A stretch of DNA of 64,000 nt from an uncultured Archangium sp. (GTDB taxonomy: Bacteria; Myxococcota; Myxococcia; Myxococcales; Myxococcaceae). Below the pieces are notes generated by a model that saw nothing but the letters and a program-made list of their open reading frames with translations, made no database searches and was not told where the DNA came from. Within the stretch, counting starts at the first letter, position 1. Each line of letters begins with the position of its first letter. The position numbers and the translations under genes were made by a program. This document shows, piece by piece, positions 11,019 through 24,677 of this stretch. The DNA lies in contig CAIVGN010000107.1 of assembly GCA_903905455.1 (NCBI GenBank), positions 1-64,000 on the forward strand, in the 5' to 3' direction.

Positions 11019-11034
11019 TGTTTCACGTGGAACG
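11019..11034. promoter_or_regulatory. parS: parS site 1 (one half-site variant)
   Basis: TGTTTCACGTGGAACG matches the 14-bp parS core except for T instead of C in one arm. It sits between rsmG and parA. Confidence 0.85.
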
Positions 11035-11804: not shown

Positions 11805-11820
11805 TGTTCCACGTGGAACA
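11805..11820. promoter_or_regulatory. parS: parS site 2 (perfect palindrome)
   Basis: TGTTCCACGTGGAACA is a 16-bp perfect palindrome with the M. xanthus-type parS core. It lies upstream of rsmG. Confidence 0.92.
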
Positions 11821-11843
11821 GGGAGGGACGGACGGTCCCTGGG

Positions 11844-11886
11844 CTCCCTCGCCCTGCGGAGCGGGGAGAGGGCCGGGGTGAGGGGC
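11844..11886 (-). repeat. Dispersed GC-rich repeat, copy 4 (inverted)
   Basis: It reads ctccctcgccctgcgg to ggccggggtgaggggc, the reverse orientation of the family. It lies between parS sites 2 and 3. Confidence 0.8.
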
Positions 11887-11968
11887 GATCGCGGGCCACA
11901 CACAGGACACTGAGGCCCCCTGCCCTGCCCAACCGTGTCGAGGTGGAGAGTTGGGACCTGGGCACGAC

Positions 11969-11984
11969 TGTTCCACGTGGAACA
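11969..11984. promoter_or_regulatory. parS: parS site 3 (perfect palindrome)
   Basis: TGTTCCACGTGGAACA, identical to site 2. Confidence 0.92.
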
Positions 11985-12170
11985 TCGATCGGCCTGGTCG
12001 GCTCGTGCCGGATTGGGGACTGCCGATGAAGGCTCTCCTCACCGCTTCTTCGTGGAGGCGCTCTTCACCGCTTCTTCGTGAATGACCGGCGTCACGCGGA
12101 CTTCGCGTGTGCATCGATTGGTCGCGAAGGCCAAGAGCAAGGGACGGAGCGGCAACCAGTGTGAGGTATC

Positions 12171-12186
12171 TGTTCCACGTGGAACA
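12171..12186. promoter_or_regulatory. parS: parS site 4 (perfect palindrome)
   Basis: TGTTCCACGTGGAACA, identical to sites 2 and 3. It lies about 50 bases before the 26-bp tandem array begins. Confidence 0.92.
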
Positions 12187-12234
12187 CATCTTCCGATCAT
12201 CGGCACGTGCGGTTCCGTGCGACCGCAACCCCTG

Positions 12235-13333
12235 GCTCGAACGCTTCTTCCTCGTGCACCGGCTCGAACGCCTCTTCATCGCGCAGTGCTCGAACGCTCC
12301 TTCCTCGTGCACCGGCTCGAACGCCTCTTCATCGCGCAGTGCTCGAACGCTTCTTCATCGCGCAGTGCTCGAACGCTTCTTCGTCGCGCAGCGCTCGAGT
12401 GCTTCTTTGTCGCGAAGTGCTCGAGCGTGTCTTCATCGCGAAGTGCTCGAGCGTTTCTTCATCGCGAAGTGCTCGAGCTCTTCTTCGTCGCGCAGCGCTT
12501 GAGTGCATCTTCGTCGCGCTGCGCTCGAGTGCTTCTTTGTCGCGCAGCGCTTGAGTGCTTCTTTGTCGCGCAGCGCTTGAGTGCTTCTTCGTCGAGAAGT
12601 GCTCGAGCGTTTCTTCATCGCGAAGTGCTCGAACTCTTCTTCGTCGCGCAGCGCTTGAGTGCTTCTTCGTAGCGAAGTGCTCGAACTCTTCTTCGTCGCG
12701 CAGCGCTTGAGTGCTTCTTCGTCGCACGGCGCCCGAACGCCTATTCACCACGCAGTGTCCGAGTGCTTCTTCGTCGCGCAGTGCTCGCTTCTTCCTCGCG
12801 CGGCGCTCGAGTACTTCTTCGTCGCGCAGCGCTCGAGCACTTCTTCATCGCGCAGCGCTCGAGCACTTCTTCATCGCGCAGCGCTCGAGCACTTCTTCGT
12901 CGCGCAGCGCTCGAGCACTTCTTCATCGCGCGGCACTCGAGCACTTCTTCATCGCGCGGCACTCGAGTGCCTCTTCGTCGCGCAGCGCTCCAGTGCTTCT
13001 TCGCCGCACAGCGCTCGAGTGCTTGTTCAGCGCGCGGCGCTTGAGTGCCTCTTTAGCGCGCGGCGCTCGAGTTCTTCTTCGTCACGCAGCGCTCGAGTGC
13101 GTCTTCATCGCGCGGCGCTCGAGTTCTTCCTCGCCGCCCACCGCTCGAGTGCTTGTTCAGCGCGCAACGCTCGAGTTCTTCTTCGTCGCGCAGTTCTCGA
13201 GTCAGTCTCCGTCGCCCAGCACTTGAGTGCGTCTTCGTCGCGCAGTGCTCGCGTCTTCGTCGCACAGTGCTCGCGTCTTCGTCGCGCAGTGCTCGCGTCT
13301 TCGTCGCGCAGCGTTCGAACGCTTCTTCGTCGG
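12235..13333 (+). repeat. Array of about 42 degenerate 26-bp tandem repeats between rsmG and mnmG
   Basis: The unit reads GCTCGAGTGCTTCTTCGTCG followed by CGCAGC, with common swaps (GAA/GAG, CAT/CGT, CAG/AAG, T/C at the end). Most units are 26 bp; near 13245-13310 three are 22 bp, and a few are truncated. Two related TTCACCGCTTCTTCGTG-like pieces lie near 12035-12080. The unit has no stop codon in several frames, so long open frames cross it on both strands. Because 26 is not a multiple of three, each unit shifts the frame, and they cannot encode one repeated peptide per unit. There are no unique spacers, so it is not CRISPR. Each unit holds a near-palindrome GCTCGAGC. It is bounded by parS sites 4 and 5. 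Confidence 0.9.
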
Positions 13334-13374
13334 GCCTGCTCGCCCGACCATCGCAGCCTGAACACGAAGCGAGT

Positions 13375-13390
13375 TGTTCCACGTGGAACG
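13375..13390. promoter_or_regulatory. parS: parS site 5
   Basis: TGTTCCACGTGGAACG holds the complete 14-bp palindromic core. It lies about 40 bases after the tandem array and before the end of mnmG. Confidence 0.9.
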
Positions 13391-13427: not shown

Positions 13428-13469
13428 GGCCCCTCACCCTGGCCCTCTCCCCGCTCGCGGGGAGAGGGA
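13428..13469 (+). repeat. Dispersed GC-rich repeat, copy 5
   Basis: It runs from ggcccctcaccctgg to gcggggagaggga and abuts the mnmG stop codon, where it could act as the transcription terminator. Confidence 0.8.
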
Positions 13470-15269
13470 TCACGCCTTCGCGGCCCGCAACGCCACCAAC
13501 AGCAAGCTCATCGCCGCCGGCGTCAACCCCTGCACCCGCCGCGCGTGGCCCACCGTGTCCGGCCGCACCAACTCCAGCTTCTCCACCGCTTCCCGACTCA
13601 ACCCGCGCACCTCCGCGTAGCGAAACCCCTCGGGGATCCGCCAGGCGTCGTGCGACTCCACCTTCCGCGTCCACGTCGTCTGCGCCTGCTTCACGTAGCC
13701 CGCGTACTTCGCCTCCACCTCGACCTCCGCGCACAAGTCCTCGGGCAGGGCAGGGCGATGGACGTCCTCCGCCGCGAGTGACGCGTAGGTCACCTCCGGC
13801 CGGCGCAGCTTCGCCAACAACCGCGCGCCCTCGAGCCGCGCCAATTCCCCGCGCACCTGATCAGCTCGCTGCGCCGACGACGCGGCTTCCACCGCCGACA
13901 CCAGGCCCACCCGCGCCCCGTGCGCGCGCAACCGAAACTCCGCGTTCCCTTCGCGCAAGGTCAACCGGTGCTCACTGCGGCTGGTCATCATGCGGAACGG
14001 CTCATCCACCCCGCGCGTGACGAGCTCGTCGAGCAACACCGCCCCGTGCGCCTCGTCACGCCCGAGCACCAACGCCGGCGCGCCCTGCACCTGCAGCCCC
14101 GCGTTGATCCCCGCGAGCAGCCCCTGGAACGCGGCCTCCTCGTAGCCCGAGGTTCCATTCAACTGCCCCGCGAAGAACAGCCCCGCGACGCGCTTGGTCT
14201 CGAGCGTGGCGTGCAACTGCGTGGGCGGCGCGTAGTCGTACTCCACCGCGTAGCCGTAGCGCGCGACCTGCACTTCCTCGAGGCCCACGATGCTGCGCAG
14301 GAACCGCAGCTGCACCTCGGCGGGCATGCTCGTCGACAGCCCCGCGGGGTACACCAACGGCGACTGGTGCCCCTCGGGCTCGAGGAACACCGTGTGCCGC
14401 GCGCGGTGGGCGAAGCGCACCACCTTGTCTTCCACCGACGGGCAGTACCGCGGCCCGCGCCCGACGATCTCCCCCTGGAACAGCGGCGACGCGTGCAGGT
14501 TGTCGCGCAAGATGCCGTGCGTCTGCGCGTTGGTGTGCGTGACGAAACAATCGAGCGGCGCGCGGAGCGGGAAGGGTGCGCGCGGCGTGCGCAATGAGAA
14601 CGGGCGCGGCGACACTTCCCCCGGCTGCCGCTCGCAGCGCGCCCAGTCGATGGAGTCCTTGAGCAACCGCGCCGGCGTGCCGGTCTTGAATCTCCCGAGC
14701 GAAAAGCCGAGCGCGCGCAAGCTCACCGAGAGCCCCGTCGCCGCCGCGTCACCCAGCCGCCCACCCACCGACTTCTCGTCGCCGAGGTGCATCAGCGCCT
14801 GCAGGAACGTGCCCGTGGTCACCACCACCGCGCGCGCCGCGAAGCGCCGCCCGTCTTGCAGCGTGACGCCCACCACGCGCGCGCCCTCCACCTCGAGCAC
14901 GCTCGCTTCGCCTTCCACCACCGTGAGCCGGGCCTGCGCGCGCACCGTGGCCTGCATCACCTCGGCGTACACGTCGCGTTCGCACAGCACGCGCGTCGCG
15001 CGCACCGCGGGGCCCTTCGAGCCGTTGAGGGTCACGAAGTGCGTGCCCGCTTGATCCGCCGCGCGCGCCATCTCGCCCCCGAGCGCGTCGAGCTCGCGCA
15101 CCAGGTGCCCCTTGGCCGTGCCGCCGATGGCCGGGTTGCAGCTCATCAGGGCGATGCGGTCGGCGCGCATGGTGAGGCCGAGCGTCGAGAGCCCCATGCG
15201 CGCGCACGCGAGCGCTGCTTCACAGCCCGCGTGCCCCAGGCCCACCACGATGACGTCGTACGACTCCAT
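13470..15269 (-). CDS. mnmG: tRNA uridine-5-carboxymethylaminomethyl modification enzyme MnmG (GidA)
   Basis: The 599-residue protein opens with the FAD-binding motif VVGLGHAGCEAALA. It has the family signatures MSCNPAIGGTAKGHLVRE, RFKTGTPARL and GLFFAGQLNGTSGYEEAA. With MnmE, MnmG modifies the wobble uridine (cmnm5U34) of tRNAs. ATG 15269 is preferred to the in-frame TTG three codons upstream. Here mnmE lies 5.5 kb away with unrelated genes in between, although the two usually sit close together. The gene continues the minus-strand gid-par block. Confidence 0.95.
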   Translation of the reverse strand: MESYDVIVVGLGHAGCEAALACARMGLSTLGLTMRADRIALMSCNPAIGGTAKGHLVRELDALGGEMARAADQAGTHFVTLNGSKGPAVRATRVLCERDVYAEVMQATVRAQARLTVVEGEASVLEVEGARVVGVTLQDGRRFAARAVVVTTGTFLQALMHLGDEKSVGGRLGDAAATGLSVSLRALGFSLGRFKTGTPARLLKDSIDWARCERQPGEVSPRPFSLRTPRAPFPLRAPLDCFVTHTNAQTHGILRDNLHASPLFQGEIVGRGPRYCPSVEDKVVRFAHRARHTVFLEPEGHQSPLVYPAGLSTSMPAEVQLRFLRSIVGLEEVQVARYGYAVEYDYAPPTQLHATLETKRVAGLFFAGQLNGTSGYEEAAFQGLLAGINAGLQVQGAPALVLGRDEAHGAVLLDELVTRGVDEPFRMMTSRSEHRLTLREGNAEFRLRAHGARVGLVSAVEAASSAQRADQVRGELARLEGARLLAKLRRPEVTYASLAAEDVHRPALPEDLCAEVEVEAKYAGYVKQAQTTWTRKVESHDAWRIPEGFRYAEVRGLSREAVEKLELVRPDTVGHARRVQGLTPAAMSLLLVALRAAKA

Positions 15270-15335
15270 GCTGATCAACCTGTACCACGGCAGCGAACGT
15301 TGACAGCCCCGCGCGCGTCCCGCACCGTTGGCCCC

Positions 15336-20084: not shown

Positions 20085-20136
20085 CACACTGACGGACTCC
20101 GTGGTGGTGCGGACCCCCACGGAGTCCGTCAGTGTG
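20085..20136. repeat. Hairpin repeat ACTGACGGACTC, copy 1
   Basis: The stem CACACTGACGGACTCC pairs perfectly with its complement 20 bases downstream. It lies just upstream of the FHA gene. It is the longest stem of the five family members. Confidence 0.85.
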
Positions 20137-20381: not shown

Positions 20382-20427
20382 ACTGACGGACTCCGTGGTG
20401 GTGCGGACCCCCACCGAGTCCGTCAGT
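20382..20427. repeat. Hairpin repeat ACTGACGGACTC, copy 2
   Basis: The 12-bp stem arms ACTGACGGACTC and GAGTCCGTCAGT flank a GC-rich loop. It begins the first unit of a 192-bp direct duplication. Confidence 0.85.
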
Positions 20428-20573: not shown

Positions 20574-20619
20574 ACTGACGGACTCCGTGGTGGTGCGGAC
20601 CCCCACCGAGTCCGTCAGT
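20574..20619. repeat. Hairpin repeat ACTGACGGACTC, copy 3
   Basis: Same sequence as copy 2, 192 bases away. It lies downstream of the mnmE stop, where it could terminate transcription. Confidence 0.85.
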
Positions 20620-20734: not shown

Positions 20735-22336
20735 TCACTTCCCGATGCAGAACCGCTGGAAGATGGCGTCGAGCAGGTCGGTGCTCGCGTCGGCGCCGGT
20801 GAGCTCGGAGAGCGCGTGCACCGCGAGCGAGAGTTCCCCCGCGACCACCTCGAGCGTGGCCACGTCCGCCGCCAACCGTGCGCGAGACAGGGCCTCTTCC
20901 ACCTGTTCGAGCGCCAGCACGTGCCGCTCGCTCACGCTGATCACCGCGCCGGCGCCGCTGAGTCGGGCCACGAGCTCGTCGCGCAACTCCACGAGGCCGG
21001 CGCCCGTGAGCCCGGACACTGCGAGGCGATCCGGTGCGCCCTGCATGTCGCGCGAGGAAGAGCCACGGGTGCGCTGCTCCGCGCGCCCGGAGACCGCGAC
21101 GAGATCGACCTGGCCCGGCACTGCGCGCGCATCAGCAACCTCGGAGCGTTGATCAGCGAGCACAGGGACCGCGACGAGCTCGACCTGGTTCGGCACTGCC
21201 CGCGGATCAGCAGCCTCGGAGCGTTGATCCTCGAGTCCGGACACAGTGCCCCGGCCTTGTCCCGAAGGTGAGGGAGTCGACCTCGGGCCGTAGTGCCCCG
21301 TGCGGCCCCTCACCCCGGCCCTCTCCCCGCTCTCGCAGGGCGAGGGAGAGAGATCCGCCTTTCCCCACACTTCGAGCGGCGCGTTCACCTCGGCCCCCCA
21401 CGCCGCGCGTTGCTCCACGGTGGCCTCGGGAGGCAGCACCAGCACCGCCAGATCCGCACCCCGCAGCGCCTCCTTCGTGCGCTCAATGCCCAGCGCCTCC
21501 AACCGCCCAGCGCCCTCCCGCAGCCCCGCGGTGTCCACCAGGGTCACCGCGAGCCCAGCGAGTTCCACGCGGGCCTCGAGGGTGTCGCGCGTCGTCCCCG
21601 GCTCCGCATCGACGAGGGCGCGGTTCGCGCCGATGAGCGCATTGAAGAGCGTCGACTTCCCCGCATTGACCGGCCCATAGAGCACCACCCGCGCCCCGCG
21701 CCTGATCAACGCCCCCCGCTTCGCGTCACCCAGCAGCGAACGAACGTGCGCCACCAACGGCTCGAGCCGCGCCGCTGCGTCGGCCTCCGCGCCCTCGGCT
21801 TCCTCGGGGAAATCCAGGGCGCCCTCGACGTCGGCCTGGAGCGCCAGCAGCGGGGCGTGCAGGGCCTCGAGGCGCGCGGTGAGCTCACCGGACAGTTGGG
21901 CGGCGGCGGCGCGCACCTGGGCCTCCGACTCCGCGGCGATGAGGTCGGCGACGGCTTCGGCGCGGGTGAGGTCGACACGCCCGGACAGAAACGCGCGGCG
22001 GGTGAACTCGCCGGGGGTAGCCAAGCGCACGCCCTCATGGCGCAGCACCTCGGCGAGGAGCATCGACAGCAACCGCGGCGCACCGTGGGCGTGCAGCTCG
22101 ACCACCGCTTCCCCGGTGAAGCTCTTCGGCGCCGCGAAGTACAGCGTGAGGCCCTCGTCGAGCACCGCGCCGGCCGCGTCGGTGAAGCGGGTGAAGTACG
22201 CATGCCGGGGCACGGGGGCGTCCGGCAACCCGCGCACCACGCGCCGCGCGGCCCCCAGGGCCTCCGGGCCAGACAGCCGAATGATGCCGACGCCGCCGGC
22301 CGAAGGGCCCGTCGCGAGGGCTGCGATGGTGGACAT
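20735..22336 (-). CDS. mnmE: tRNA modification GTPase MnmE with an inserted G-domain segment
   Basis: The 533-residue protein has the MnmE order: an N-terminal folate-binding domain starting TIAALATGPSAGGVGIIRLSG, helical regions, a GTPase domain (G1 GPVNAGKST near residue 227, G3 DTAGL near 268, G4 as WGKADL near 325), and the C-terminal CIGK. It works with MnmG on wobble uridines. It is 70-90 residues longer than usual because repeat-derived sequence is inserted just after G4 (about residues 330-435). G4 reads GKAD rather than the usual NKxD, so the guanine-contacting Asn is missing. The frame is intact and CIGK is kept, so it may still function. The long upstream frame is non-coding; ATG 22336 is the start. 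Confidence 0.92.
   Translation of the reverse strand: MSTIAALATGPSAGGVGIIRLSGPEALGAARRVVRGLPDAPVPRHAYFTRFTDAAGAVLDEGLTLYFAAPKSFTGEAVVELHAHGAPRLLSMLLAEVLRHEGVRLATPGEFTRRAFLSGRVDLTRAEAVADLIAAESEAQVRAAAAQLSGELTARLEALHAPLLALQADVEGALDFPEEAEGAEADAAARLEPLVAHVRSLLGDAKRGALIRRGARVVLYGPVNAGKSTLFNALIGANRALVDAEPGTTRDTLEARVELAGLAVTLVDTAGLREGAGRLEALGIERTKEALRGADLAVLVLPPEATVEQRAAWGAEVNAPLEVWGKADLSPSPCESGERAGVRGRTGHYGPRSTPSPSGQGRGTVSGLEDQRSEAADPRAVPNQVELVAVPVLADQRSEVADARAVPGQVDLVAVSGRAEQRTRGSSSRDMQGAPDRLAVSGLTGAGLVELRDELVARLSGAGAVISVSERHVLALEQVEEALSRARLAADVATLEVVAGELSLAVHALSELTGADASTDLLDAIFQRFCIGK
21095..21244 (-). repeat. 75-bp in-frame tandem duplication inside mnmE
   Basis: Two adjacent 75-bp units (21095-21169 and 21170-21244) encode 25-residue repeats that share the DQRSE and RAVP motifs. 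The unit length keeps the frame. They lie inside the post-G4 insertion. Confidence 0.85.
21303..21348 (+). repeat. Dispersed GC-rich repeat, copy 6, inside the mnmE coding sequence
   Basis: It runs from ggcccctcaccccgg to gcagggcgagggag. It is translated on the minus strand as SPSPCESGERAGVRGR directly after the G4 motif. Confidence 0.9.
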
Positions 22337-24401: not shown

Positions 24402-24462
24402 GTTGATCAATCAAGGCACGACGATGACTCGTCCGCCCAGGCTTCGTCTCGGGCCATGCACT

Positions 24463-24506
24463 CTGACGGACTCGGTGGGGGTGCGCACCCCCACGGAGTC
24501 CGTCAG
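24463..24506. repeat. Hairpin repeat CTGACGGACTC, copy 5
   Basis: Arms CTGACGGACTC and GAGTCCGTCAG enclose an inner hairpin GTGGGGGTGCGCACCCCCAC, giving an almost fully paired structure of about 44 bases. Confidence 0.85.
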
Positions 24507-24677
24507 TCTTGCGGAATCGAGACGCCGCGCCTTCGCGGGGCTCACACGGGAGGCGCACGGCCGACGACCCGCGCACGCCCGCCACCCTTCCGGCTGCTGT
24601 TCACCACCTCGCGTCCGAGTTCCCCACGCGCGCCGACTCCACCACCCCATGCACGCCGCCCATGCGAGTCTGCCCCG

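Follow-up and report, generated by a model that had tools for sequence, protein, structure and literature searches.

We analysed a window of 64,000 nucleotides (the whole stretch of DNA under study) from the genome of an uncultured Archangium sp. (G000). The mnmE gene in this window is a single open frame in which the P-loop GPVNAGKS, TTRDT, DTAG, GKAD and C-terminal CIGK motifs can be read. Its product was matched by the NCBIfam models NF003661 and TIGR00450 and by Pfam TrmE_N and MnmE_helical. The MnmE of 9hip was both its best PDB sequence match (E 1.1e-77) and the top PDB fold match of its predicted structure. The N-terminal TrmE domain, the helical domain and the inserted G domain with G1-G4 are all present, as is the FC(I/L/V)GK C-terminus expected of MnmE, and the gene for the partner protein MnmG lies in the same window at 13470-15278. 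At G4, where NKxD is canonical, the protein reads GKAD. The features of the locus are:

20738..22336, minus strand: mnmE (trmE/thdF) coding sequence, 533 aa, with its ATG at 22336 and its final sense codon ending at 20738
21653..21676, minus strand: G1/P-loop GPVNAGKS (GxxNxGKS in 86/86 Myxococcaceae MnmE)
21524..21535, minus strand: G3 DTAG (DTAG[LIVM]R in 83/86 Myxococcaceae MnmE)
21353..21364, minus strand: G4 GKAD, residues 325-328, with Asn replaced by Gly and with Lys and Asp kept
21304..21348, minus strand: inserted REP-type palindrome, 45-bp core, translated about SPSPCESGERAGVRG, aligned with 29 other copies from its own genome
21249..21274, minus strand: tail with inverted CCCTCACC, which can pair with GGTGAGGG of the REP core
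21170..21244, minus strand: 75-bp unit U1 (VSGLEDQRSEAADPRAVPNQVELVA)
21095..21169, minus strand: 75-bp unit U2 (VPVLADQRSEVADARAVPGQVDLVA), 62/75 identical to U1
21020..21094, minus strand: 75-bp unit U3 (VSGRAEQRTRGSSSRDMQGAPDRLA), a diverged copy
21002..21019, minus strand: G5 VSGLTG, with SG instead of the usual SA, a family trait
20738..20749, minus strand: C-terminal CIGK, the catalytic Cys motif of MnmE (FC[ILV]GK in 86/86 Myxococcaceae)
13470..15278, minus strand: mnmG (gidA), the MnmE partner, an intact 602-aa frame (TIGR00136, 623.6 bits, E 4.8e-187)
13430..13455, minus strand: another REP copy, just past the stop codon of mnmG, an intergenic position typical of this REP

The stretch from G4 to G5 is 111 residues long in the window MnmE compared to 10-17 in same-genus relatives, and the whole protein exceeds its same-genus homologues (436 aa) by 97 aa. 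The GC-rich REP core begins 4 nt past the final G4 codon, and a longer module (query 17-117) is common to a second site of the genome (G000:C82:16003-16101) at 82% identity. The VSG/VPV codon run with which each 75-bp unit starts is similar to the true G5. U3 matches U1 and U2 at 41/75 and 44/75 positions, respectively, against a codon-shuffle mean of 23, and 0/20000 shuffles scored as high. From U1 to U2, the 20 shared codons contain 4 amino-acid changes and 1 silent change, as expected without constraint on the peptide. The 75-bp units were rejected as a mobile element, since no further copy was found in the genome or in 12 relatives except for weak short matches of 27-34 nt; the array is also absent from the TRF listing of the window. 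A structured RNA was likewise rejected for the insert region, which had no Rfam match. In an AlphaFold2 model using 43 homologues, pLDDT fell below 50 only at residues 336-433 and was mostly above 90 over the remainder; the insert is predicted to form a disordered bulge that leaves the rest of the fold undisturbed. Collectively, these results confirm that the insert is real and that the MnmE reading frame has incorporated a REP, an arrangement that, in terms of sequence, is particular to this genome. The initial annotation had described a dispersed GC-rich repeat translated after a G4 of GKAD that lacks the Asn, within an intact frame ending in CIGK, all of which is borne out. It had counted two in-frame 75-bp copies in a protein 70-90 residues longer than usual; the in-frame tandem arrangement and the greater length hold, but there are three units, the third diverged, and the excess is larger. 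It had also regarded the repeat as domesticated, which agrees with its incorporation into the frame but not, as regards selection for a function, with the predicted disorder of the insert and the mostly nonsynonymous differences between the units.

REP-type repeats are usually regarded as intergenic. The 26-mer AGCGGGGAGAGGGCCGGGGTGAGGGG of the element was found in 90 copies at ≤2 mismatches in the 8.6-Mb assembly (54 perfect and 36 with one or two mismatches), compared to 0 for the reversed control, and at ≤3 mismatches the window had 9 matches versus 0 in shuffles. The element is a short, dispersed palindrome of high copy number, and alignment with the 29 other sites revealed that the mnmE copy is essentially the consensus. 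Most copies look intergenic and several come right after stop codons; about three loci among 39 distinct copies look intragenic, a call made from codon-position GC, which is a rough detector. The mnmE loop itself has atypical codon-position GC. The window sites are at 2371, 6853, 6912, 11860, 13430, 21306, 51053, 59825 and 61953, and REP density is ~12x higher in the window (8 copies at ≤2 mismatches) than genome-wide (90 in 8.6 Mb). Five of the six reading frames are open in the REP consensus, and the element lies in frame in at least two genes of this genome besides mnmE. The first is a DUF6986 gene (L019:1001-1975, contig C20) with an in-frame insertion of ~17 aa, where five same-genus relatives have a clean gap. 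The second encodes DNA topoisomerase III and RecQ in one frame (L009:1-2130, contig C22), and two REP copies lie in the linker of this topB-recQ fusion; the fusion is also found in G002, G003, G005 and G037, whose linkers hold other repeat-like peptides. A RAYT-driven REP was rejected because a search for the Y1 transposase (RAYT/TnpA-REP, PF01797) gave no match in the assembly, while control genomes did match. The element may be a remnant, may have moved otherwise, or may depend on a gene in the missing part of the assembly. Since no GTAG/CGTC tag was seen at one foot of the aligned core, we call the element REP-type and do not assign it to the GTAG/CGTC super-families.

Other repeats lie near mnmG and mnmE. 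Four perfect copies of a GTTCCACGTGGAAC palindrome were found at window 11806-13389, between mnmG and rsmG (0 expected in shuffles), and a further copy with one mismatch at 11020. We take this palindrome to resemble ParB parS sites, and the mnmG-rsmG region looks origin-proximal. The parS-like palindromes flank a tandem array of ~43 copies of a 26-bp unit (GCTCGAGCGCTTCTTCGTCGCGCAGC) at 12235-13332, also between mnmG and rsmG; the unit length is not divisible by 3. A second palindromic repeat (ACTGACGGACTCCGTGG...CCGAGTCCGTCAGT) is present at 20088-20133, 20382-20427, 20574-20619 (just downstream of mnmE) and 24462-24507, and as RNA it has a predicted fold of -35.5 kcal/mol (z -3.7).

The G4-G5 loop was compared among the MnmE of 86 Myxococcaceae and 8 other Myxococcales genomes. 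In the 86 Myxococcaceae it ranges from 8 to 222 aa (sd 37.5), while the start-to-P-loop, P-loop-to-G4 and G5-to-end lengths have sd of only 1.0, 1.3 and 0.6; loop lengths were 12-29 aa among 57 homologues, most of them from gamma- and betaproteobacteria. On an MnmE tree built without the loop (a quick search with many weak forks), parsimony requires at least 18 switches between long and short loops, taking 25 aa as the threshold, and at least 4 changes in REP presence in the loop. Even close species differ, with loops of 11 aa versus 71 aa (G027 against G098 and G107-G111). Judged from these alignments, the comparison shows the loop to be a hotspot of insertion and duplication in Myxococcaceae relative to the other mnmE segments. 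An HMM of the REP from the window's genome matched the loops of nine genomes, namely G000, G002, five g8 genomes, G008 and, weakly (E 0.001), G017. Nothing was found with this HMM inside the mnmE coding sequence outside the loop, a match for G013 in this control being reckoned upstream of the coding start. The REP peptides are of the SGERAGVRG type in G000 and G002, GEGKGEGV in G017 and, from the reverse strand, PHPDPLPEGEG in g8. Because strand and frame differ among G000/G002, G017 and the g8/G008 group, we infer at least three independent REP insertions; those of G000 and G002 could be one shared insertion. G000, G002, G003, G005 and G017 are REP-rich (100-356 copies) and G027, G028 and G033 are REP-free. 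The long loops of the REP-free G027 and G028 contain tandem duplications, each with a period divisible by three. In two of the 42 MnmE that could be read from other Myxococcota, the loop is made up of other repeats. That of G179 (L271) holds a palindromic VIPAEAGIQ...LRWHDK repeat that matches another site in a 113-kb sample of this genome (77 nt at 86%, E 9e-21), with further partial copies there, and that of G165 (L269) matches another site in the 274-kb genome sample (61 nt at 80%, E 1e-10). Reversed controls for both gave 0 matches. As far as similarity searches go, these matches show unrelated dispersed repeats in the MnmE loops of two further Myxococcota families, so the loop seems to take in whatever repeat a genome has.

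G4 and G5 are the guanine-contacting motifs, and the Asp of G4 is the guanine-specificity residue. Whatever the loop length, the G4 Asn was found in 0/86 Myxococcaceae MnmE (72 Gly, 9 Ser, 3 Ala and 2 Thr). The Lys is kept in 85/86 and the Asp in 86/86, K326 and D328 are invariant over 43 aligned MnmE, and G5 starts with VSG in 78/86. Within the same order, NKxD was present in all five genomes read of family f3, and families f2 and f9 have S/A-KxD. In the other Myxococcota MnmE the Asn is missing from 25/42 and present in 17/42, the Asn-less motifs being mostly T/S-KxD but also G-KxD, and many enzymes across Myxococcota combine an Asn-less G4 with a loop of ordinary size. Full NKxD is therefore no defining feature of the myxobacterial orthologues. 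In G000, the motifs of Der are the normal NKTD and NKWD, and a lineage-wide corruption of GTPase motifs was rejected on that ground. As read from these alignments, the Asn-less G4 is a family-wide trait that is independent of any single insert. In septins the G4 Asn is often A, S or G (PMC1931588). A survey of 298 guanine complexes reported that the Asn contact is the weakest hydrogen bond in Ras, that NKxD is not universally required and that many GTP-binding proteins bind guanine without needing the Asn (PMC11594714). The Asn-less G4 is thus an old lineage trait, independent of the insert, that offers no grounds for proposing a changed base. Base recognition probably rests on the Asp and Lys of G4 together with the backbone of G5, which would leave GTP specificity unchanged. 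The initial annotation had tied the G4 change to the insertion and proposed a shift in nucleotide specificity. The first proposal found no support, as the Asn is missing from short-loop and long-loop enzymes alike, and the second was rejected given the kept Lys and Asp and the phylum-wide loss of the Asn. It had also allowed that both peculiarities might prove normal for the lineage; this is the case for G4 but not for the insert, as G003 and G005 of the same genus have 10-aa loops.

The G4 change and the insert could together reflect loss of guanine specificity or decay of MnmE toward gene loss. MnmE and MnmG are jointly missing from G004, G011, G022, G025, G031, G117 and families such as f7; the genomes without them include G022 (100% complete) and, if its assembly is trustworthy, the same-genus G004 (97%). 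Because the two were lost together in several Myxococcales, though kept here, the wobble-uridine pathway is dispensable in the order, which would suit decay. Repeated loss of this pathway is seen in many Myxococcales, including some genomes that are 97-100% complete, and in M. xanthus deletion of gidA impairs fruiting-body development (review PMC4227215). By segment, dN/dS between G000 and its closest relatives was 0.15-0.35, near the values of insert-free relatives. In the G5-to-end segment it was 0.24-0.35 for G000 pairs compared to 0.18 for G003-G005, which hints at some relaxation and would also suit decay. However, dN/dS stays well under 1, the window has an intact mnmG, nearly all of the 86 enzymes retain intact catalytic motifs and the Asp and Lys of G4 are kept, while Asn-less G4 motifs are widespread in Myxococcota enzymes with ordinary loops and likewise in septins. 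A pseudogene was rejected on the intact motifs, the dN/dS and the presence of mnmG. We therefore regard loss of specificity or decay as unlikely; from its conservation, the window MnmE is probably a working enzyme, and it is still under purifying selection.

It is similarly improbable that selection has turned the G4-G5 loop into an evolvable disordered module, refreshed time and again by mobile repeats and enabled by an earlier rewiring of G4 (Asn to Gly) and G5 (SA to SG), with roles such as tuning G-domain dimerisation or MnmG docking. We also give little credence to an adaptive enlargement of the loop, in which a disordered peptide would be selected to regulate G-domain dimerisation, MnmG docking or localisation. 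Independent expansions do recur at one place between the two base-contacting motifs, and a related REP insert persists in the five g8 genomes and G008, but the loop sequence is not conserved between genera, close species carry loops of very different length, the tandem units diverge mainly by nonsynonymous change and the loop is predicted to be disordered. An assembly or sequencing artefact is very improbable, for although the genome is fragmented (251 contigs) and probably metagenome-derived, and repeats are well known to cause misassembly, the insert is internal to a contig of 88.6 kb, preserves the frame through 333 nt and has tandem units that differ from one another, and comparable insertions or expansions occur in the single-contig genomes G012, G027, G094 and G102.

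The data are best explained, and in our view with high probability, by nearly neutral events of repeat insertion and slippage within a tolerant loop of an enzyme that still works, without a shift in nucleotide specificity. REP copies would land at random across the genome, mostly in intergenic DNA, with selection removing those that break genes. In MnmE, an abundant REP-type palindrome inserted in frame between G4 and G5, and the stretch adjoining G5 was duplicated in frame to give the three 75-bp units, taking the loop from ~10 to 111 residues. Such in-frame arrivals would persist in the G4-G5 surface loop, where they drift and duplicate. Their survival is probably owed to the REP being open in five of its six frames and to the peptide forming a disordered bulge beside a G domain that stays folded.

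Proteins decorated by REPs are already known (PMC3733652; Rickettsia elements, PMC10969869). Intragenic GTAG/CGTC-tagged REPs are in frame, some at several sites of one gene (uvrA), and those between modules are thought to be neutral (PMC3733652). Like these, the window REP is short, abundant, mainly intergenic and sometimes in frame within genes. In contrast to them, it has no GTAG/CGTC tag in the aligned core and no Y1 transposase match in the genome, and here a single GTPase loop is the target across several lineages and for unrelated repeats. The Rickettsia palindromic elements are ~150 bp long and encode a conserved peptide in one frame (Ogata et al., as reviewed in PMC10969869). The window REP resembles them as palindromic selfish DNA that is translated in frame in unrelated conserved genes and predicted to be compatible with their folds; unlike them, its core is 45 bp and is read in varied frames and on both strands. 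The window MnmE shares all domains, the P-loop, G3, the G4 Lys and Asp and FC(I/L/V)GK with E. coli MnmE (cryo-EM PMC12397908, PDB 9hip). It differs from bacterial MnmE in the replaced G4 Asn and in the SG for SA of G5, and from non-myxobacterial homologues in having a loop of 111 aa rather than 12-29 aa. Its G4 is like the septin variants in which the Asn of NKxD is replaced and the Lys and Asp are kept (PMC1931588), although septins are a different GTPase family whose hydrolysis and dimerisation are not comparable to those of MnmE. A search of the available literature on MnmE loop expansion or Asn-less G4 in myxobacteria found no report. The novelty lies in unrelated repeats having invaded one and the same GTPase loop again and again.

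The window case cautions against assuming that a motif variant beside an insert was caused by that insert. The Asn-less G4 shared by the family, with its kept Asp, is a natural test of what NKxD must provide in a dimerisation-activated GTPase. The MnmE loop itself is a natural series of independent in-frame insertions, drawn from three or more unrelated repeat families and accompanied by tandem duplications. As orthologues of every length are available, MnmE offers a clean system for asking how repeat DNA becomes protein and which demands a loop must meet in order to take it up.
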